Of a stretch of DNA of 27,558 nt, positions 3,310-23,401 are shown in pieces. The notes under the pieces are model-generated. The model was not told the DNA's origin and did not search any database. It saw only the letters and a list, made by a program, of their open reading frames with translations. Each line of letters begins with the position of its first letter. The stretch's first letter is position 1. Origin of the DNA: a virus. The position numbers and the translations under genes were made by a program. Where the stretch lies: positions 1 to 27,558 of the IMG/VR virus record IMGVR_UViG_3300043424_000206; one strand, given 5' to 3'.

Positions 3310-3495
3310 TTAAATGCCGTAGTCCTCAAGAGTCTCCTTATTGAAGATCGACTCCGCTACATCTGGATGCCATGTAAGGTGTACCATAATGGTGCGGAAT
3401 GTCTCGACGTAGTACTCAATCGGTGCGTCAACTGGCAGTGTGATTTGCAGCGACTTTTCTTTTGGCCCTTCGACTGTGATCTTAATTGGTTTCAT
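3310..3495 (-). CDS. Hypothetical phage protein (61 aa)
   Basis: No family recognised. It begins with beta strands (KPIKITVEGPKEKSLQITLP) and ends with a helix and acidic tail. There are no cysteines and no membrane segment. Its ATG overlaps the stop of the diphosphohydrolase gene by four bases (ATGA), so it is translated from the same message. Function unknown. Confidence 0.6.
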   Translation of the reverse strand: MKPIKITVEGPKEKSLQITLPVDAPIEYYVETFRTIMVHLTWHPDVAESIFNKETLEDYGI

Positions 3496-4286
3496 GAGTT
3501 GTATGGATCTGGATATTTGATGTCACAGTCTTCACAGATCCAGCCGTAAAGCCAATGGTAAATGTAGCGGCGACCGCACGTGCATTCACCCATGTCTTGT
3601 TGTTCCGAATTGGAATCACAAGCTTCTTCTTTAAGGTCGCAATCTGCGACCTTTTCTTTAAGATCACACTTTGTGATCTTGCGGCGGTAGGTTCCATTGT
3701 TTACATAGGCTGGCGTAGCCCAACTTTCAATATACAGTGTCAACCAACGACCTTCACCGACATAGACTTCGTCACCGTCCTGTAGTCTATCATCCGCAAA
3801 GAGTATACGGTATTCTGGCACGGTGTCGGGTTCAGGCACATCGTCAATAGACAACTCAAATCCAAAGTCTTCCAAGTCACCTCTGAGCGAAGCGATGATT
3901 CTATCAAACTCTTCGTCGGTCATACCGTTTACCGGAGAATCCTCTTCGACTTCTCCGTTAGTCGGTAGCTTGTTGCGGTCATCCTGTAGCTTGCCTACCG
4001 CAGAGGCGTCCATAAGGATGTTGCAGGAACAGGCAATGTGTGCAAGGTGCGAGAATCCGGATTCAGGATCGAGATCTTCTCCGTCCCGCCACGCGTTAAG
4101 GTGCCGCAGGATGGCGTTAACGTAAGTGCTAGCGCACACGCCAGTCTTGCGCCAATTCCACGGACCGTACTTATCCGCGCCCAACTTATGCGCCCAAGCA
4201 ACTTGTTCCATTGCTGACGGTGGAATAAGTCCGAGCGGTGTTTTGGTTGCGCCAACTGCTCCTTTGGGATCATTATATTCATTCAT
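3492..4286 (-). CDS. dATP/dGTP diphosphohydrolase-like protein (DUF5664-type) with zinc-binding tail
   Basis: Residues ~12-95 match the phage family annotated as dGTP diphosphohydrolase N-terminal (formerly DUF5664). Visible marks are a KTPLGLIPP start, KYGPWNWR at ~39-46, then HLNAWRDGEDLDPESGFSH at 62-80 and LAHIACSCNILMD, an alpha-helical MazG-like metal site. Such enzymes cut dNTPs to dNMP plus pyrophosphate and adjust phage nucleotide pools. In some phages they serve 2-aminoadenine genomes, but no purZ-like gene is in this window, so that is not claimed. Residues ~113-200 are acidic and not recognised. Residues 203-220 are two 9-residue repeats (KITKCDLKE, KVADCDLKE). The C-terminus carries C235-x-C237 and C251-x2-C254, likely a zinc site. 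The added repeat and tail are unusual for the family. It overlaps both neighbouring genes. Confidence 0.75.
   Translation of the reverse strand: MNEYNDPKGAVGATKTPLGLIPPSAMEQVAWAHKLGADKYGPWNWRKTGVCASTYVNAILRHLNAWRDGEDLDPESGFSHLAHIACSCNILMDASAVGKLQDDRNKLPTNGEVEEDSPVNGMTDEEFDRIIASLRGDLEDFGFELSIDDVPEPDTVPEYRILFADDRLQDGDEVYVGEGRWLTLYIESWATPAYVNNGTYRRKITKCDLKEKVADCDLKEEACDSNSEQQDMGECTCGRRYIYHWLYGWICEDCDIKYPDPYNS
3633..3680. repeat. Two tandem 27-bp units, each a perfect hairpin, inside the diphosphohydrolase gene
   Basis: On the plus strand the first hairpin is AAGGTCGCA-ATC-TGCGACCTT (3633-3653) and the second AAGATCACA-CTT-TGTGATCTT (3660-3680), joined by TTCTTT, giving a 27-base period. TTCTTT also precedes the first. 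The arms differ at two positions and both differences are matched on the opposite arm, so each stem stays perfect over nine pairs. A decayed third unit may lie at ~3613-3626. Confidence 0.85.
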
Positions 4287-12298: not shown

Positions 12299-15200
12299 AT
12301 GTCAGAACTAGATAAATTGCCTTCACTGGAAGAGGAAGAAGAATTGGTCCAGCAAGAACCAGATTTCAAATCTTTCTCAGATTGGAAAACAGACAACTCT
12401 TCTGGAGATCCTGTTCGGGATCGAGTCAATTGGGGTAATTATGTTAGGGAACAATACGTTGACGCTAATCTTTACGATGACTATGTCGAAAAAGAGATTC
12501 GAGACACGACCAAACAACGTTTAAATGAACTAGTAGAGACAGATCAGATCAAGTCAGAAGATCTGAATAAACGACTTTATGAAATTGACGCTGAGTCGGA
12601 TGCCGATCTCGATTCCAAGATGAAGTCGATCCAGTCTACGTTCGACTATAATACGTATGAATGGGAAACTGCTTCTAAGTATCTCACCTTTAAAGAGTAC
12701 AATCCAGAAGGAACTGAACTCGACGAAGTAACCAAACAGCGCGGAGAAGAACTTTTCACTGAAGCGCAGTCTGTTGCAGATCGTTATTATGATGACGCCA
12801 AAAAACGCATGGCGTTGAGCGGTGAGATCCCAATTGCGAAAGTAACTGGTGAAGATGGTAAAGTAGATTTTATTCTCGGACCATCATTCAATAAGGACAA
12901 TATCGGTGACGCTATCCGCAACAGTAAAAAGGGTGGTGTCTCCTTTGCTGACGCTGCTGGTGTTATGGCAAAGACCAGAACTCCGAAGGGGTATAATGAG
13001 GAAACATATAAAGTCCAACGCTATCTTGAAGCCGGATCTGTTATCGAGACCATTTGGGGTGGATTATCCAACTCCATTCTAGACCGATATGCTGACAAAC
13101 TCGCAGAGGCTGATGCCGATGGTCGCGATCTGACTGAGAATGAACAGCCAGACTTTGCACAGATTCGTAAGGATGTTAATAAGATGCTCCCAGAGAACGA
13201 AGGATTCTCTGATGAAGAAGTGAAAAAAGCTTTTACTCAGATCGCCTATATGAAGGCGAACGGTGGTAATAAGTTCAAAGTCTACGAAGACGAAGAAGCA
13301 TACAAGAACGTCCGAAACGTCGGCTTTGCTGGCCCATTGGTCAATCCGTTGGTCATGGCGAACGAAGAGAAGTTCTTGCAGTCCATCAATGCTAGTCCGC
13401 AATTGACTGAGGAACAGCGTAAAGACCTTACTGCCCAACGCACTCCGTTCCTCCAAGAAAACTTTGATCACTACAATAAGAACTTAACGGAATCAGACTT
13501 GTCCGAAAAATGGCTTAATGCATTGCAAGCAGGACGTGCCAGCGGCATGAAAGACTACGAGATCTTGGATGCATTCTCCAAAGACAAAACCAATTTCAGT
13601 GAGATGTCTGCCAGACTTTCTGGTATTGGCGAGTCTATCCAAGACGCATTTGGAGAATTGGGCGCAGCCATCCCGATGCTTCTTGAAGCTGATTGGGCGC
13701 GTGACTATATGATTGGCAACATCAAAGAGCGTAGCAACCGCCGTGAAGTTGCACGTCTCTTTGGTACGGAGTTTGGTACTGGACAAGACTTCATGGAGAC
13801 TGTTGCTCCGATGCTTGTTGATATCGGTGCGACCGCACTCCTCACTGGAGTTACTTCCCCTCTCGGATCTGCGGCCTACCTTACTGCGAAGTCTGGAGCC
13901 AGACTCACAGCCAAAGGTTTGTTGAAAGGCGTTGCCACAAGTGCGTTCCGCCAACTTCCGAACGAAACGGCTGAACAAGCTGCGAAGCGAGTTCTTGCTG
14001 CTGGTCTTATTAAGGAGTCCACAACTGAAGCTGGTATGACTGGTGCGATGAAAGCCATCGGCGCATACAATAGCTCTCTTGCGAGTTCGATTGGAACTAC
14101 TTCTGCGATGGCCATTCCAGCGTTCAACCGTTCTGCTGGTTCGACTTATGCTTCCGTCTACGCGCAGTTGCAAGCAGATGGCAAGCTATCACCAGAAGAA
14201 ATGCACGACCGCGCATTAGGAGCTGGTCTTACCAGTGGTGCGATCACTGCGGCAATTACTTCTGGATTCGCCGCTTTGGGTAGGGCTGGTATCGAAGATG
14301 CGCTACTCGGCGGTGCTACTAAGAGACAGCTCAAAAACATTCTCTCGAAGATCTCTAAAGTAGACGACATCTCTGACGATGAGTTTACCGCTGTTGTATC
14401 ATCCGCTGTCGCTGATTCCATGAAAAAGTTTGGATCGGCGAATTTTGGTACAAAGGCACTTAAAAACTCTTTTGACGAAGGTGTTGAAGAAGGTCTCGAC
14501 GATTTCATCAACGGCTTTGTTTCCGATGCCGCCACTGATGACGACACTCCTTTCTTGCAACGCTTGGAACAAGCTGGTCGTTCAGCCCTTATCGGTGCTG
14601 GTATGGGTGCTGGAGTTCCAGCCATCAAAGCAGTCAGAGATACCATTGTTAGGCAGGGAACTGCTGATCAACGTCTTGCTGCACAATGGCAAGTATCCAA
14701 AGATGTCAGTGATAAGTTTTCACAACGTCTCGCTGATCAATTGAGGGTATCTAAAGAAGTTCGTGATAAGCTTCTTGAAACGAGTCCGATCTCGGCTGAA
14801 ACTGTTTTTACTATTCTTACGTCTCCACGTTCTGGGAGAGCAGAATATGCTCGCGCTAAATTTGCTGAAGCACGGGAGAGTATGGCAAATGCTGTTTATG
14901 GGCCAATAGAGCTTCCAGAACCAGTGCTTCCAGATCAAGAAACAGCCACTGAAGGAACCACTGTAAAAGAACAAGCTGGCGCAGACGAAAACGAATCGTC
15001 GCCAGCTGTCCTTACTCCAGATGGTCTTGTCAACGCTGGCAAGCCAGCCGAAGCCGCTCCCGAATCCGGAACCGTGACTCCTGAAACCACAGCTCCGAAC
15101 CAGCAAGCAGCTCCCGTTACTCTCAATCTTAAAGAGGAAGTTGAGACTGCTCTCGCGAATCCTGTTGTGATCAACGGCAACAACGTTGAGTTCGCGGAGA

Positions 15201-18200
15201 TTCCGTACAAACACAAGTTCGCAGAAGATCCAGACAGTCCTGTCACTGAACAGACTGGTCAAGCTAGAGCCGTCAACATGGCTGGTCGTCCAGTGGTTGT
15301 CGCTGTGATCAACGGCGTTCGAGTTCCATTCTACCAAAGCACTGGTGCTGGTGGCAAAAAAGATGTTGCTCCTAAGAAATGGTATCCAATATTTGGTATC
15401 AGTGATGGTTGGTTCAATAAGACTTCTGGAAAACAAATCAATAACTACTACGGCTCGCAAGAACTACGTGATGTTGCAGAGTATCTAGACAACAATGTCG
15501 GCGATGTGTTGGGCGTTAATATCCAACGCACTAGCTATTCTGACGATACACCACAAGTTGTAGCAATCAATGAGGGTCTAGATCCCACACCGAATTCACC
15601 AGAGTTTAAACAACGTTTTAACGACAACGTCAGCAATCTTCTTGGTCGCCTTACAGCAGCACGTCCAGCTGTGCAGCAACAAGTTGCAGAACAGACAGTC
15701 GCCGCAGAACAAGCCGCCGCCGAAGAAGCGGAAGCAAATACTCCAATTGCTGCTAAAGTTCCGAAGCCACGCAAAGAGCGGGTCAAGAAGATCAAGCAAG
15801 CCCTACAAGATGCTGATCCAGAAGAGGTCAAAGGAGTTCTCAAGACTATCATCAAAGAAGAGGAAGCGGCATCAGAGATCGCCGACCCCCCGAAGGTGAA
15901 ACAAGTTCCGTCTCCAATCGAAGAGGACGAAACCATTACGCCGCCAGTAATCACACCGCCAGCAGAAGTTGCGCCGTCAGCTCCAGCAGTTACTGCGCCG
16001 AAGAAACAGCCGAAAGCTAAAGCGGCTAAAGCTGTGGCCCAACCACAAGCTCCAGCTCCCGCCGCTCCTGCTCCAGCTACTCCTACTGTTACCACTACGG
16101 CGGCTACTACTGCGCCGAAGAAACAGCCGAAAGCTAAAGCGGCTAAAGCTGTGTCCCAACCACAAGCCCCAACGGAAACTGCGCCAGCGGCTCCCGCTGT
16201 TGCCGCTCCCGCTGTTGCCGCTCCCGCTGTTGCTCAGACTCCGACCAATCCTCAAGATGCACTTAATATCAGTAATGATGAGGAAACTAATCTCACTAAT
16301 AATGCATCTGCCGGAGGACTAGATCCGAAGAAAGCTACCAAGCACGTCCGTAAGGCAATGGTCAAGATGGGCTTACTCAAGCCAGATACTGATGTCGCTT
16401 CTCCGAAACCAGAAGTTGCACAACCAGAAGTTGCCGCCAAAAAACAAAAGCCTACCACTCTGATGGGCGAAGCTCTATCGGAAATGATCGACACTCAACT
16501 CGACTTCCTTGTCGAGAACGGAGTCGTGGCCCGCATCAAGAAGTCTTCCCTTTACGGATTGCCGTCTAACCATACAGACGTCATCGATTCTAATGAACTC
16601 TCAAACAAGTTGGCACAACGAGTGTTTGAGCGTTATAAGCCGCTGACCCCACAAGAAGTATCTGATCTATATCAGATCCCTCTTGCGCTGATGAACTCCG
16701 CTAGAACTCCAGACCGTAGTTGGTGGAATCCGTTTACTAAAACGTATGTTCAAAAGGAGAGAATCCAATACCGCACAGTTATTGATGGTGGTAAGAAGTT
16801 TGGTTTGTTCGACAACAACCCACTTACAATTGCGGCGATGCTACGCAAAGGTCTTCCAGTTTATGTGCCGACAACATTCTCTGGTGAAATAAATAAGGCC
16901 ATTAAGGTAGACAGTTCAACCAGAACGATCTATGATGTAAGCTATCCAGATCCTTTCGGTGGGCCACAAGAAGTTTCTATTGTAAACACTGAGGATAGCA
17001 ACAAACAAAAGTCAGAAGTTGCTGAAATTGTTAGCAACCAATTGGAACTACTCAGTGCGTTCAAACCCCCACTAGATTCTAAAATAAAGGTTGATAGGAA
17101 TCTTACAAATTTGGCGGATAAAACTCAAGTAGAGGATGATCCGTCTATCACTTATTACAAAGCACTTGATCGAGTTGATCGGTTCTTTGGTGACGTGTAT
17201 TCCAATATCGGAGATAGAACTTCTGATAAAGAAAGAAGGAAAATGGTCGGGCCATCTAAAGCTTTCCTCAAGCTCATGGGCTTTGACGATCCGAAAAAAG
17301 GACTCTCTGAGGCTCAGATTATTGAGGCAAAACAATTGGGAATGCTGGAAATAGTTCCAGAGTTCCACATGACTCTGTTTAAGGGTGAGCTGTATCAGAC
17401 TCTTGAAAGAGAAGGGGCGATTAACTTTGATTCTACTAAGAGTAGGAACCAGTATAGCATAGTCGAATCCAAAGCTGGAGTATCTAGAGAAGCTCTCCTT
17501 AGCAGGATCCAAGTACCGACTGACTTTACAATCCCCAAAGAGTTGGAAGGGAAGTCAGATCTTATAAAGAAAGCTTATTTCCTGTTGGATAAGGGATTCA
17601 AAACAGGACAAACTATTCCAAAAATAAACGACGATAAGATTACTGCGGGCAATCTCGACGACCAATCCGCTAACATTGTCGTTGACCAGTTTATATTCAA
17701 CTCGATCAACGATAGTCTTTCTCGACCAGATAATAATGGAATGTTCCCAGACGTAGCTGGTATCGTTAAGCGGGCGACTAACCGCGTTATGGATCGCATT
17801 AAGTTCCGTGACGCATCTGCTAAAAACTCAGACGCATTCGATAGACTCCGCATCGACGACGATCAATCGGCTTCAAGTGTAGATGCATACAGCAAAGAAC
17901 TTGCTGAAGTCTATGGCGTGGAGGAAGCTACCATTGACAGTATCCACTCTTCGTTGGATGCGCTGAAAGCGGAGAACGTCTATCGTGGAGTCCGTTCTCA
18001 AGTTGAAAAACTATTGCGTACGGATAGCACGGTTGCTGGTGCAATGCGTAGCTTGGCTAAGAACACAGTGTTCAAGAACGATCCGTCATTGGCGGACAAT
18101 ATGTATCCTGTACAACTGTTCAATGAAGTTGCGCTATGGGCCTCTTATAATAAGCAAACATCGGCGAGTTCGTTTAGATTCCGCCGCCAATTGCTTGATC

Positions 18201-21200
18201 ATTTCCCATCAGCATCCATATCAAGTAGTCTTGTTCACGATGCCTTTGAAGCTTCTGGTGCATTCCAGTTCAACTTCAAACGAGCTGCCGATAAGAACAC
18301 GATCAATATGCTTATCCGCAACGGCTTCAGCGAACAAGATGCCAAGTTCGTTCTTGAGCGTCGTAACATCAAGCGCATTGTTGACGAGACTGGAGTCACT
18401 GAGGCTGAGGCTGAGAGCATCATGCGCTCGCAGTTGAGAGCGCAGTCGAGCTACTCTGCCCCATCGTTCATTGATGCGAAACATCGTCAGTATTATCGCC
18501 AGCTTAACTTGGCAGAGATCGCACGTCTTGGACTTGAAAGCGGAAACGAACAGAGTGTCGTTGAGGCTCTCCGTAAGATTGCCAAGAACGGCAGGACTGA
18601 GCAGAACAAAGCTGTTGCTCAGTTGATTCTCCGCTTCCAGAACATCTTGCGCGATACCAAGTTCAACATTGTTGATATCCAGTACAACAAAGCAGGAGAG
18701 TTCATCCGTGGTGAGAACGGAACCAACCGTGTTCTTATTAACACTTCTGGATTCTATGGTAGTGGTGTTGAGTCCGTTCTCCTCCATGAGTACATCCACG
18801 CAATTACCCACACGGTCATTGCTAGACCAGACGCAGACCTCACTCCAGCACAGCGTGGTGCTAAGGCACGTCTCAAAGGATTACTCCAGTTGGCTACCAA
18901 AGAATACAACGACAACCTCCAAAAGACTGGTGTCGGTTCCGTTGAATTTGAAGCGGCGACTGTCAATCTTGACGAGTTCATCGCTACCTTCTTCTCGTCA
19001 GTTCAATTCCAGAACCAACTCAAAGTCCTTCGTCAGACCAACCAGAAAGCCAGAAGCTTCTTCGCTCGTATCTATGATGCGATTCTGGACATCTTCGGTA
19101 TCAAGAAGAACAGCAATCTCGACAATGCGTTCGACGCTCTAGTCGATTTGGTAGAGGTTGGCAATGTGAAGGGCCGTTCCTCTCTCGCTGGCTTTATCGA
19201 TAAGTCTCTGATGGAAGCCCGCAACAACGGAGCAAGACGACGCATCGTACCAGTACGACGTGCAGAATCTGCCGCTGAGATTGAAGCTCGCCTGTCTTCG
19301 TTTGAGGGAATCTATGACGGAGAGGACGTTACTCCAGAAGAGCAAGCCGCGATTGACACGCTGATCGATGATGCGGTTCAGAATCTGATCCCATCCAATG
19401 TGGATGTCACCATCTTCGACACACAGAAAGAAGCCGACGACAACGGCATCTTCGGTGACAGACCAGATGCCGCGATCATTGCTGTTCTCATGAAGGACAG
19501 TACTGGACGCTCTATCCCAACCATCTTCATCAACCGCGCCAATATGCGTTCCGCAATGCTGGCTCGCAACTCAGTCATCGAGAATCCAGTAATGGCCAAA
19601 GGAATCCTTGAGGCAGTTCTCAATGAGGAGATGTTCCATATCGCTGAGTTCTATGCGCTGTCCAAAGAAGAAGTTGCCGCTGTCGCTGGAACTATGGCCG
19701 ATGTCGAGTTCGACGAGATTGTAGACCAGTACACTTCCAACGCGACACGCCGCGAGCAGATTAAACAAGCACTCCGTGGGGACAACGGAGCAGAAGTTAA
19801 GTATCAACTTGTTGGTGAGATGCTCCGCATGAGGGCACAGATGATCACTAGAGGATATACTACTGAGCAAGACATCGCTTTCTTTGAGACCAATCCAAGT
19901 CTCATGAGTCTGGCGTTCCGCTACTTCCGTGGCTTCTTCCGCAGGATGTACGCAAGATACAATCTGAATAAGAACAATCCAGAACTCGCGGCATCGATTC
20001 ATTTGATGTCCACTGAGCTTAACTTCCTCCGTCAAGGAACTTACAATCCAGATACCCACGCATCATTCGATCCAAACAATCCAGATGCGAACATGGAGAT
20101 TCTCCGTAAGCGTTTCTCCGCTCTGTCCAAAGACATCACCGCAGAAACTACCGATGATGAAATCATGGAGCGTTTCAAAGGAATGTTTGCCACATTGGAA
20201 CTTCCAGTTGCTCTCTTCAGCAGAGGCGAGTACAAGCACATGAGTACCAAGATGGAGCAGTGGATGAAGGGAGAGGTCGATCCAAGAGTTACTCGCGTGT
20301 ATAAACAGATGGTGTTCTTCCAGCAAGCAACCGATGCTCTCGGCAAATCCATGATGACTCGCATTGAGAAGCTCATCAAAGAAGCTTACGGCAAGAACGG
20401 AATTGATCCTGCCATACTAGCAGATGCTACTGGTACTACGGAGAACATCTACATCGATAAAGATCTCAAGAAGAAATTCCGCCAAGAATTTACCGATGCG
20501 TTCAAGAGTAGGAAAGAACGAGTGATAAACGGCGAGCTTGATCCTAAATGGATTGACGCTGACCATAAAGCAGCAATGCGTAAGGCAATGCTCAATGACC
20601 GCATCGAAGCTGAAACGCTCAAACTTAGACAGGAAGTCCGTGCGAAACAAGCGGCGGCTTTGGATAAGATCTCGAAGGATTCTCCACAGCTTGCCGCCGC
20701 ACTGGTCGAGATGCGTAAGATGACTGACGCGATGTCGAAGGTTATTAAAGATAAGTATAATCTTTCGGAGCAGTTGCAGATTAAGTTCGACAACAACATG
20801 GGCATCTACCTTACCAGAGCGTATGCCGCCTTCAACGAAGAGGGATATATCGAAAAGGTTCTGGAGTCCAAGGATCCCAAGTTCGTTGAGATCAGAGAAG
20901 AAGCCAGCACATACTTCCGCGAAACTTACATCAAGCGTCTGACTAGTATTAAGTACAACGATTCGATTAAGAAAAGTAAGGTTACTGGTGGTACTCCCAT
21001 CACCAAAGAACAAGCCAGAGAACTAGCCGTACTGGAGATCAATAGCAATCCAGCTATCGTTGCTCAGTTCATGGCTCAGTTCTTGCGGGCGTATTCTCCA
21101 GATTACCACAGACGTGCTGGAGTATTACCGAAGGGCGTTACTAAGTCTCTTATCAACAATCTCCGCAGGAAAGGCACTCTTGATCCAAGAGTCCGCAAAC

Positions 21201-23401
21201 TTCTCGGCGAGTACGAGCAAGAGACAGAGGGCGTGAACAACTTGCTCCGCACTTACTCACTAGTGTCTGGCATGGTTGCTCGTCAGTCTTTCTACAACAA
21301 CCTTATTCAGATGGCAGAAGTCCGTCCAGTTCTGGATCCCAACAACAAGCCAGTTCTCGATGAGAACGGCGAGCCAGTGCAAGATGGATTCCTTCTCACT
21401 GAAGACCAACTCCGTGAGCGGATGAAGAAGAATCCGACGATGCAACAGGAATACGTGAACCTTAGAACTGGTAGGATCTACACTCCAGATTCTGAGGATC
21501 AAGTTCCAGCTGGTCTTGAGGGAGAATACGATCCGACATACAACTACTACGGACCGAAGGAAATGATCGAAGGGATGCGTAGGATGTACACGCCGCCGAT
21601 GATCGACGAGAACCTCACTGGCGCACAGCGAGCAACCTCCGCAGTAGTGAATGCGTTCAACGGGATTACTGGTATCTCGCTCGCAACTAAGACTCTCGGA
21701 TCTCTTCCGTTCTATCTGCGAAACATCGTTAGCAATATGTTCTTCTTTGCGCCAGCCCAAGGATTCTTTAGATATGGCAGGATGTTTAAGTCTCTTAAAC
21801 TTGTTACAGATAAAGCCAAGATCGGAGGAACATTCGACATTGATGCTTACCAAGCGGAGCTTATCGCATTGGGTATCCTCAACAACGAGATGACTTCATC
21901 TCTGGTTAAGGATATGTTGAAGGGCAAGTTCAAAGTGGAAAGCGTCAACGAAGAGATCAACACTATCCTTGGTAAGATCAAGAGTGCTGGTGCTAAAGGA
22001 GCAGAGTTTATTAAACCAGCTACAGATAAACTCCAAGCACTATCCGCAGCGGTCGATGGCTTCTACAAGATGGCATACTTTGAACATGAACTCGACATCC
22101 TACGCAAAGCAAAGGATGCGGATGTCAAAGCTGGCAATAGGGATTCATTCTTTGCCAAACTCACTGACGATGAGATGAAGCAGGAAGCCGCACGGAAAGT
22201 TCGGGCTACGGCACAGAGCTACTCAGAAGCTCCGCCAATTGTACAAGAAGCTGTGCGATCCGTTGGTATGTTCATCGCTCCGTTCTTGCGGTTCAAGACT
22301 GAGGTTCCACGGATCATATTCAATACTTATAAAGAAGGTATTGCTGAGATCAAGTCGGGCAATCCAGTTATTTCAAAACGTGGTTGGTGGCGTGTGAGTT
22401 CTATGACTGCATGGCTTGGTGGCGTATCAGCCATAGTGCCGTCGGCAATCCGTATGTTCTTGGGAATCTGGGAAGATGAGGATGAGTTCTTACGCTCAAC
22501 TGTTCCGAGCTATCTACGTGATAACACGTTCTTCTACTATCCGTGGTTTGGGGATAAGCTGAAGTCTGCTGACTTTACTTTCCTCAATCCATTCTCAAGT
22601 GTGATGGATCCCATCATGCGCGGACTCGAACACATCTTCAGAGGTGAACCATCTGATGCTGTGGTTGCATTCACAAGATCGTTCTTGGGAACTTATCTTG
22701 ACGAGCAGATCTTCACTGGAGCTATCGCGGACTTCTACCGAAACAAAGATGCCGACACTGGTCAGCCGATCTACTATGATGCTGACGGACTACAGATATT
22801 CACAAAGGGATTGGGATATGTTGTGACGAAAGCATTCCTTCCGAGAGCTTTGGAGAAGTCGTGGGAGGCAGTTAAGTCTACCATTGGTGAAGCTCCAGAG
22901 ACAGATCAACAACTGTTCGGTATTCTCGCTGGAGAACTCAAGCCCTTCAAACCACACGATATCGACATCAAGAAGCAGTTGTCACGATTCCTCAAACAGA
23001 AGCGTGACGAGCGCAACGATTACTCGTACAGGAAGAACGAACTCAAGACTCCCAAGACTCTGACCGACATCGAGATCCGTGGTCTGGCTAGAGACTTCGT
23101 GGAATCACGAATCAGAATTGATGAGGAACTCTATCGCGGTCTTCGTGCCGTGAGCAAGCTACCGATCATCGGACTCTCTGAGCGTGAGATCGTGGCACAG
23201 ATGCGAGAGAAGGATGTCAACATGGGTCCAAGACGGACGATGCTGTTGCAGAACAAACTTGTAGAGAAGCCAACGCTTGACCCCTCCTTCATCCAAGATG
23301 TCTTGGAGCTAGAAGGAGGAGTCGGACAGCGCAGACTTCAAGTGTTCCAGCAAGAGATTGACCGCTTGTTCCCCACTAGATTCATGCCACTCAACCCATA
23401 A
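12299..23401 (+). CDS. Giant phage polyvalent protein with zincin and LPD38-like regions (3700 aa)
   Basis: Probably virion-carried and delivered into the host with the DNA, as proposed for phage polyvalent proteins. Order of parts: ~1-250 acidic helical; ~440-780 alanine/glycine-rich with hydrophobic stretches (~506-528, 643-665, 760-780) that may enter membrane; ~871-941 low-complexity linker; ~942-1083 a compact part with VPFYQSTGAGGKK and KWYPIFGISDGWFNK, a pattern I recall from other large phage proteins; ~1118-1321 Ala/Pro/Lys linker with repeats; ~2070-2270 zincin metallopeptidase with H2163-E-x-x-H2167 and E2226 (EFIATFF) as likely third ligand; ~2290-2560 a second, degenerate zincin-like part (EEMFH at 2443-2447); ~2570-3000 coiled; ~3315-3450 LPD38-like (AQSYSEAPP, APFLRFKTEVPR, then a probable membrane helix). 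Starts at ATG 12299 after a leader without a Shine-Dalgarno site; its stop overlaps the convergent gene by 11 bases. No frameshift is seen over 11 kb. Confidence 0.8.
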   Translation: MSELDKLPSLEEEEELVQQEPDFKSFSDWKTDNSSGDPVRDRVNWGNYVREQYVDANLYDDYVEKEIRDTTKQRLNELVETDQIKSEDLNKRLYEIDAESDADLDSKMKSIQSTFDYNTYEWETASKYLTFKEYNPEGTELDEVTKQRGEELFTEAQSVADRYYDDAKKRMALSGEIPIAKVTGEDGKVDFILGPSFNKDNIGDAIRNSKKGGVSFADAAGVMAKTRTPKGYNEETYKVQRYLEAGSVIETIWGGLSNSILDRYADKLAEADADGRDLTENEQPDFAQIRKDVNKMLPENEGFSDEEVKKAFTQIAYMKANGGNKFKVYEDEEAYKNVRNVGFAGPLVNPLVMANEEKFLQSINASPQLTEEQRKDLTAQRTPFLQENFDHYNKNLTESDLSEKWLNALQAGRASGMKDYEILDAFSKDKTNFSEMSARLSGIGESIQDAFGELGAAIPMLLEADWARDYMIGNIKERSNRREVARLFGTEFGTGQDFMETVAPMLVDIGATALLTGVTSPLGSAAYLTAKSGARLTAKGLLKGVATSAFRQLPNETAEQAAKRVLAAGLIKESTTEAGMTGAMKAIGAYNSSLASSIGTTSAMAIPAFNRSAGSTYASVYAQLQADGKLSPEEMHDRALGAGLTSGAITAAITSGFAALGRAGIEDALLGGATKRQLKNILSKISKVDDISDDEFTAVVSSAVADSMKKFGSANFGTKALKNSFDEGVEEGLDDFINGFVSDAATDDDTPFLQRLEQAGRSALIGAGMGAGVPAIKAVRDTIVRQGTADQRLAAQWQVSKDVSDKFSQRLADQLRVSKEVRDKLLETSPISAETVFTILTSPRSGRAEYARAKFAEARESMANAVYGPIELPEPVLPDQETATEGTTVKEQAGADENESSPAVLTPDGLVNAGKPAEAAPESGTVTPETTAPNQQAAPVTLNLKEEVETALANPVVINGNNVEFAEIPYKHKFAEDPDSPVTEQTGQARAVNMAGRPVVVAVINGVRVPFYQSTGAGGKKDVAPKKWYPIFGISDGWFNKTSGKQINNYYGSQELRDVAEYLDNNVGDVLGVNIQRTSYSDDTPQVVAINEGLDPTPNSPEFKQRFNDNVSNLLGRLTAARPAVQQQVAEQTVAAEQAAAEEAEANTPIAAKVPKPRKERVKKIKQALQDADPEEVKGVLKTIIKEEEAASEIADPPKVKQVPSPIEEDETITPPVITPPAEVAPSAPAVTAPKKQPKAKAAKAVAQPQAPAPAAPAPATPTVTTTAATTAPKKQPKAKAAKAVSQPQAPTETAPAAPAVAAPAVAAPAVAQTPTNPQDALNISNDEETNLTNNASAGGLDPKKATKHVRKAMVKMGLLKPDTDVASPKPEVAQPEVAAKKQKPTTLMGEALSEMIDTQLDFLVENGVVARIKKSSLYGLPSNHTDVIDSNELSNKLAQRVFERYKPLTPQEVSDLYQIPLALMNSARTPDRSWWNPFTKTYVQKERIQYRTVIDGGKKFGLFDNNPLTIAAMLRKGLPVYVPTTFSGEINKAIKVDSSTRTIYDVSYPDPFGGPQEVSIVNTEDSNKQKSEVAEIVSNQLELLSAFKPPLDSKIKVDRNLTNLADKTQVEDDPSITYYKALDRVDRFFGDVYSNIGDRTSDKERRKMVGPSKAFLKLMGFDDPKKGLSEAQIIEAKQLGMLEIVPEFHMTLFKGELYQTLEREGAINFDSTKSRNQYSIVESKAGVSREALLSRIQVPTDFTIPKELEGKSDLIKKAYFLLDKGFKTGQTIPKINDDKITAGNLDDQSANIVVDQFIFNSINDSLSRPDNNGMFPDVAGIVKRATNRVMDRIKFRDASAKNSDAFDRLRIDDDQSASSVDAYSKELAEVYGVEEATIDSIHSSLDALKAENVYRGVRSQVEKLLRTDSTVAGAMRSLAKNTVFKNDPSLADNMYPVQLFNEVALWASYNKQTSASSFRFRRQLLDHFPSASISSSLVHDAFEASGAFQFNFKRAADKNTINMLIRNGFSEQDAKFVLERRNIKRIVDETGVTEAEAESIMRSQLRAQSSYSAPSFIDAKHRQYYRQLNLAEIARLGLESGNEQSVVEALRKIAKNGRTEQNKAVAQLILRFQNILRDTKFNIVDIQYNKAGEFIRGENGTNRVLINTSGFYGSGVESVLLHEYIHAITHTVIARPDADLTPAQRGAKARLKGLLQLATKEYNDNLQKTGVGSVEFEAATVNLDEFIATFFSSVQFQNQLKVLRQTNQKARSFFARIYDAILDIFGIKKNSNLDNAFDALVDLVEVGNVKGRSSLAGFIDKSLMEARNNGARRRIVPVRRAESAAEIEARLSSFEGIYDGEDVTPEEQAAIDTLIDDAVQNLIPSNVDVTIFDTQKEADDNGIFGDRPDAAIIAVLMKDSTGRSIPTIFINRANMRSAMLARNSVIENPVMAKGILEAVLNEEMFHIAEFYALSKEEVAAVAGTMADVEFDEIVDQYTSNATRREQIKQALRGDNGAEVKYQLVGEMLRMRAQMITRGYTTEQDIAFFETNPSLMSLAFRYFRGFFRRMYARYNLNKNNPELAASIHLMSTELNFLRQGTYNPDTHASFDPNNPDANMEILRKRFSALSKDITAETTDDEIMERFKGMFATLELPVALFSRGEYKHMSTKMEQWMKGEVDPRVTRVYKQMVFFQQATDALGKSMMTRIEKLIKEAYGKNGIDPAILADATGTTENIYIDKDLKKKFRQEFTDAFKSRKERVINGELDPKWIDADHKAAMRKAMLNDRIEAETLKLRQEVRAKQAAALDKISKDSPQLAAALVEMRKMTDAMSKVIKDKYNLSEQLQIKFDNNMGIYLTRAYAAFNEEGYIEKVLESKDPKFVEIREEASTYFRETYIKRLTSIKYNDSIKKSKVTGGTPITKEQARELAVLEINSNPAIVAQFMAQFLRAYSPDYHRRAGVLPKGVTKSLINNLRRKGTLDPRVRKLLGEYEQETEGVNNLLRTYSLVSGMVARQSFYNNLIQMAEVRPVLDPNNKPVLDENGEPVQDGFLLTEDQLRERMKKNPTMQQEYVNLRTGRIYTPDSEDQVPAGLEGEYDPTYNYYGPKEMIEGMRRMYTPPMIDENLTGAQRATSAVVNAFNGITGISLATKTLGSLPFYLRNIVSNMFFFAPAQGFFRYGRMFKSLKLVTDKAKIGGTFDIDAYQAELIALGILNNEMTSSLVKDMLKGKFKVESVNEEINTILGKIKSAGAKGAEFIKPATDKLQALSAAVDGFYKMAYFEHELDILRKAKDADVKAGNRDSFFAKLTDDEMKQEAARKVRATAQSYSEAPPIVQEAVRSVGMFIAPFLRFKTEVPRIIFNTYKEGIAEIKSGNPVISKRGWWRVSSMTAWLGGVSAIVPSAIRMFLGIWEDEDEFLRSTVPSYLRDNTFFYYPWFGDKLKSADFTFLNPFSSVMDPIMRGLEHIFRGEPSDAVVAFTRSFLGTYLDEQIFTGAIADFYRNKDADTGQPIYYDADGLQIFTKGLGYVVTKAFLPRALEKSWEAVKSTIGEAPETDQQLFGILAGELKPFKPHDIDIKKQLSRFLKQKRDERNDYSYRKNELKTPKTLTDIEIRGLARDFVESRIRIDEELYRGLRAVSKLPIIGLSEREIVAQMREKDVNMGPRRTMLLQNKLVEKPTLDPSFIQDVLELEGGVGQRRLQVFQQEIDRLFPTRFMPLNP
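15992..16167 (+). repeat. 59-bp direct repeat in the Ala/Pro/Lys linker
   Basis: Copies at 15992-16050 and 16109-16167, 117 bases apart, match at 58 of 59 positions and encode APKKQPKAKAAKAV(A/S)QPQA. The near-perfect DNA match, including third positions, points to a recent duplication. Confidence 0.85.
16190..16234 (+). repeat. 15-bp tandem repeat, three copies
   Basis: GCTCCCGCTGTTGCC three times, the last ending in GCT, coding APAVA three times within the low-complexity linker of the giant protein. Confidence 0.9.

Follow-up and report, generated by a model that had tools for sequence, protein, structure and literature searches.

What keeps two palindromes perfectly paired, side by side and in frame, within the coding sequence of a phage gene, when the arms of one differ from those of the other? 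The question arises in the window, by which we mean the whole stretch of DNA that was analysed (27,558 nt, positions 1-27,558 of IMG/VR record IMGVR_UViG_3300043424_000206). An initial annotation of this DNA had proposed that the pairing, more than the peptide, appears to be maintained, and had offered three readings: a mobile palindromic element placed in frame, an RNA processing or stability signal, or a protein-binding array.

Two perfect palindromes in a phage gene

The gene that carries the palindromes (3492-4286, minus strand) encodes 264 aa: a dGTP_diPhyd_N domain at the N-terminus (residues 6-104; PF18909, E 4.8e-31), a linker module ending in TYRRK, the palindromic units, and a C-terminal ECxCGRRYIYHWLYGWICEDC motif; its PHROG assignment is dATP/dGTP pyrophosphohydrolase. 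The linker module (minus strand, 3675-3810, boundaries approximate) reads about EYRILFADDRLQDGDEVYVGEGRWLTLYIESWATPAYVNNGTYRRK, its end abuts the palindromes, and alignment shows it duplicated or lost in relatives. The hairpins do lie inside the diphosphohydrolase gene, as had been annotated, but they occupy its C-terminal linker (residues 203-220) and fall outside the domain itself. Because the AlphaFold2 model of the protein is poor (mean pLDDT 45.6), the low confidence at residues 210-231 is just a weak pointer to a flexible linker. No DNA similarity of the unit region to known phages was found, and a tblastn search of phages with the linker modules as queries gave no match. Elsewhere, the window contains a single 3700-aa open reading frame (12299-23401), unusually long for a phage record.

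The palindromes belong to two tandem 27-nt units on the minus strand. In the coding direction the G-type unit (3627-3653) comprises AAGGTCGCA-gat-TGCGACCTT (3653-3633) and an AAAGAA spacer (3632-3627) and encodes KVADCDLKE, while the A-type unit (3654-3680) comprises AAGATCACA-aag-TGTGATCTT (3680-3660) and an AAAGAA spacer (3659-3654) and encodes KITKCDLKE; on the plus strand the two read TTCTTT AAGGTCGCA atc TGCGACCTT and TTCTTT AAGATCACA ctt TGTGATCTT. Both palindromes (3633-3653 and 3660-3680) are perfect, with 9-bp arms and a 3-nt loop, and both are in frame. The annotation had correctly described two adjoining perfect hairpins in tandem 27-nt units, although the repeat starts at 3627 and not at 3633, and its observation that each of two arm differences is matched on the other arm holds exactly. 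The synonymous third-position changes that it reported (TGT/TGC and GAT/GAC) are those of the right arm, whereas the changes in the left arm (ATC/GTC and ACA/GCA) alter residues.

No other perfect palindrome with 9-base arms and a 3-nt loop occurs in the window, and 60 dinucleotide shuffles gave a mean of 0.17 and a maximum of 1; given the peptides and the codon usage of the phage, the probabilities of such perfect arms are 0.0033 and 0.0023. As RNA, the units fold with z = -2.95, and the centroid holds both hairpins. A weaker, putative third hairpin (3600-3625, minus strand; GATTCC-aattc-GGAAC in the coding direction) adjoins the two units and was seen in the sequence and the RNA fold; its TTCC/GGAA arms reappear in relatives with other loops.

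Scanning IMG/VR yielded 76 relatives, and the alignment joined 14 of them to the window protein. Each aligned locus carries 0-3 exact palindromes, which vary in position and are in frame without exception. A second linker module is present in L003, L012, L013, L014 and L017, and since every module is closed by a palindrome, the palindromes mark module joints; in L019 the frame is lost past the linker module (QEGCTAGSAKTV...), apparently by deletion near the palindrome site. The units with distinct surroundings (n=54) divide into 30 of G-type, 23 of A-type and one chimera, in L014, whose G-type left arm and A-type right arm form two G.T pairs. The arms are thus matched at the two varying positions in 53 of 54 units. 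A conserved peptide with broken pairing, which the annotation had named as evidence against its proposal, is limited at these positions to that one unit, which keeps G.T wobble; among the three outermost arm positions, mismatches occur in some of the other units. A formal count gives 2 covarying pairs in the phage family; as its units are mainly two types that were copied, with few independent events, they are by themselves weak evidence for covariation. In the phage records searched, the palindromes are confined to this gene and have not spread through the phage genomes, and no insertion with matched empty and filled sites was caught.

A palindrome family associated with ORF6N genes

The annotation had suggested searching phage genomes for such units, and further occurrences did turn up in viral contigs: 80 stretches contain GGTCGCAAWTTGCGACC, whereas a control palindrome with identical dinucleotides gave 4. 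In the viral loci L082, L121, L129, L180 and L431, intergenic copies precede T runs, an arrangement like that of intrinsic terminators. In bacterial genomes, at least 119 stretches from many phyla contain the 21-mer AAGGTCGCAAWTTGCGACCTT, where our own estimate for 257 billion bases predicts fewer than one by chance, and the majority of these stretches lie within genes for ORF6N-domain proteins. Exact copies are few (1-4 per genome in 20 genomes), some copies of the palindrome lie outside genes, and the 6-mer that most often adjoins the 21-mer is AAAGAA, which is also the spacer of the window units. ORF6N genes read the 21-mer as LRSQ[IF]ATLK and the phage gene, in another frame, as KVAxCDLK (K[IV][TA]xCDLK), while some ORF6N genes use a second reading frame, giving VTNCDxL (VANCDxL). 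Genome matches outside ORF6N genes that look coding (for example L287) were left out of the count of in-frame insertions because the start codon is probably located downstream of them.

The family so defined consists of 21-25 bp coding palindromes with a TnnCAnnnTGnnA core and outer arms that are free in sequence yet complementary, and they occupy a fixed spot in the ORF6N genes of several phyla. Both window units fit this description in core and complementary arms, but they lie neither in nor beside an ORF6N gene; indeed, none was found in the window or in 11 related phage records, which may be fragments.

We measured pairing in ORF6N genes collected regardless of symmetry, by profile PF10543 in six bacterial genome searches and, for viral loci, by protein search; these profile and alignment-anchored sets replaced pattern-based parsing, which missed many genes (4, then 45 found). 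The best palindrome in the first 81 ORF6N domains has a mean of 8.1 of 9 arm positions paired, compared with 6.5 after synonymous shuffling; for 135 domains the corresponding means are 7.45 of 8 and 6.0. When only the protein alignment was used to anchor 155 domains, 138 had 9 or more of 11 arm positions paired and 65 had all 11, with many different arm sequences; offset 4 was paired in 138 domains, where 50 would be expected with independent sides. Set A3 shows 94.9% pairing versus 73.6% in shuffles, and a covariation score of 0.552 versus 0.156, but it was selected for pairing, which inflates the 94.9% and makes the alignment-anchored set the fair one. On the tree, the left base changed 12-39 times per offset at the offsets listed, with the right base seldom going the opposite way, and independent-pairs tests gave 2-8 supported pairs at the offsets listed, so few that the support is directional only. 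Amino acids covary as pairing requires: S with A or V; F, C and Y with G; and V with I-P. The central proposal of the annotation, that pairing is kept rather than the peptide, is therefore supported more by the wider ORF6N family than by the phage gene, and the covariation for which it proposed a test is likewise stronger there than in the two pairs of the phage family.

Palindromes are also concentrated around ORF6N genes: their density is 0.78 per kb in the 150 bp before the gene and 0.52 per kb in the 150 bp after it, versus roughly 0.1 at greater distance. Of 173 genes, 24 have a copy no more than 300 bp upstream and 13 have one no more than 300 bp downstream. There are copies 15-75 bp before start codons and just past stops, and both window arm types are found beside ORF6N genes. 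At least two in-frame palindromes occur in 22 of 265 ORF6N ORFs, and one gene (L338) has eight, with mostly different arms. Flanking copies match the gene's own internal copy at 3.37 of 5 positions versus 3.30 by chance (p 0.27), that is, not beyond chance.

Template switching, the proposed mechanism, and its rivals

Between nearest relatives, arm changes affect both sides in 68 cases and one side in 41, including some pairs of more than 90% identity. The two loop directions are about equally frequent (AAT 48/ATT 44, AAA 15/TTT 11, ATC 9/GAT 4), and the window loops, gat and aag, are not among the commonest in ORF6N genes. Homogenisation of arms and inversion of the spacer are known outcomes of template switching between inverted repeats (PMC8604942), and the both-sided arm changes and two-way loops fit that prediction. 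We therefore favour, with a probability of roughly 0.55, the reading that the window units are hairpin-forming coding palindromes of the ORF6N-associated family, kept at the DNA level largely by template switching. There is good support for the identity of the family; what it does and how it spreads we infer.

On this reading the inverted repeat would fold into a hairpin in single-stranded DNA during replication, and polymerase template switching would rewrite one arm from the other and flip the loop, so that the arms would change together and symmetry would outlast sequence. New copies might arise by slippage or recombination at hairpins, and in-frame copies would persist wherever a flexible linker takes nine extra polar residues without harm. 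As symmetry is kept while letters, direction and reading frame change, DNA shape rather than peptide seems to be what persists. That the palindrome keeps one position in the ORF6N genes of several phyla points to a function under selection, and a purely mutational account leaves this unexplained. Should a protein also use the hairpin, the first candidate would be the ORF6N protein of the host.

The strongest rival would make the palindromes operators, bound by a dimeric ORF6N or KilA-N-type protein, of the host or of another phage, whose sites drift symmetrically with its specificity. ORF6N is a presumed DNA-binding domain, the palindromes have dyad symmetry with conserved TnnCAAnTTGnnA positions, and copies precede ORF6N starts by 15-75 bp or follow just after stops, all as such an array would have it. 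However, unlike arms adjoin within one locus, both in the window and among the eight different palindromes of L338, flanking copies resemble the internal copy no better than chance, the outer, non-conserved positions are paired as well, and these phages lack an ORF6N gene (in the window and the 11 related, possibly fragmentary, records). We consider this reading unlikely, though it retains a real share of the probability, and the sequence-specific form of the protein-binding array in the annotation is weakened by the differing arms within a locus and the dissimilar flanking copies. A bolder reading has ORF6N proteins, some of which bear a C-terminal domain whose HDRFLIID...GASLKD motif resembles PLD-type nucleases, acting on the hairpins; the gene together with the palindromes within and around it would then be a self-propagating unit that recognises DNA by shape and not by sequence, and phage genes would have captured its hairpins. 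This is a somewhat more speculative proposal still.

Less probable again is that the hairpins are stems in mRNA or antisense RNA, serving stability, processing, pausing or termination. Both window units fold as RNA, many viral intergenic copies have terminator-like T runs behind them, and the plus-strand G unit with its TTCTTT scores as terminator-like; that match within the ORF, however, is antisense and of shuffle-level frequency, and on the coding strand each window unit is followed by AAAGAA and not by the T run that follows the stem of an intrinsic terminator. Rfam returned nothing above the gathering score. Mismatches in the wider family are more often A.C (34) than G.T (13; p 0.003), opposite to what a sense-RNA stem should show, although amino-acid constraints contribute to this bias; the RNA signal of the annotation is accordingly not favoured.

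Convergence, in which the phage units arose locally and merely resemble the ORF6N palindromes, appears improbable: the phage records examined have no ORF6N gene, and template switching alone could perhaps create hairpins of this length (as PMC8604942 would imply), but nine of nine arm bases and the flanking AAAGAA equal the commonest ORF6N-associated form, and both arm types are found beside ORF6N genes too. Least credible of all is a duplicated 9-residue K[IV][TA]xCDLKE peptide whose palindromic DNA is a codon accident, since, for all that the units are in frame, their peptides similar and the phage family largely two copied types, perfect arms are improbable given the peptide and one DNA palindrome yields different peptides in different frames as well as copies outside genes, so that the changes of frame already strain it.

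The differing side-by-side arms, the dissimilar flanking copies, the A.C-biased mismatches and the signatures of template switching together make a DNA-level hairpin the best account. Of the readings first offered, the in-frame palindromic element fits best, as copy number and position vary in frame and ORF6N genes use another frame, at the expense of the RNA signal and the protein array.

Relation to known repeats

No nearest known kind of element (RPE, PARCEL, REP or the nematomorph palindromes) matches the family in length, distribution and behaviour. RPEs, known from Rickettsia (and Wolbachia), are 105-146 bp long and lie in frame in protein genes and between genes (PMC2229807); the likeness is palindromic DNA, in frame and intergenic, that the protein tolerates, but here a 21-bp palindrome in a 27-nt unit occurs across many phyla and phages, has one gene family as its home, and has freely varying complementary arms. 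PARCEL, a 25-residue (75-nt) amphipathic motif conserved as protein (PMC2996958), shares tandem in-frame repeats, dyad-symmetric coding DNA and scattered taxa, whereas our unit has 9 residues in 27 nt, and its peptide shifts with the frame while the palindrome stays. REPs are short palindromes of similar size (20-40 bp), but they are extragenic, high in copy number and tagged by GTAG/CGTC (PMC3733652), unlike the present ones, which are mostly within genes at 1-4 exact copies per genome (20 genomes). The coding palindromes of nematomorph mitochondria (PMC6649704) are likewise perfect inverted repeats kept within protein genes, but they are far longer, at up to 284 bp, and mitochondrial. Inverted repeats homogenised by template switching share the homogenised arms and inverted spacers, but are scattered mutations in yeast genes and not a conserved element family (PMC8604942). 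We found no literature linking ORF6N with palindromes or giving these sequences, in a search that covered few subscription journals and is no proof of novelty; the family is widespread and apparently undescribed.

These palindromes point to a DNA-level constraint on a common, uncharacterised family of genes in bacteria and phages, at its most conserved part, where pairing dictates which amino acids may go together (S with either A or V, and G with F, C or Y). They also offer natural, repeated material for setting template switching alone, as the force maintaining palindromes over long evolution, against a protein that reads hairpin shape, and they caution that DNA structure, not protein function, may lie behind conserved peptides such as LRSQIATLK.

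As for the ORF6N proteins themselves, a sequence search found no solved structure. Many of them (L338, L274 and many other loci) end in a conserved HDRFLIID...GASLKDLGKK domain, which had no Pfam match in the two proteins scanned and looks PLD-type-like by eye; a strict pattern finds it in 29 of about 270 ORFs.
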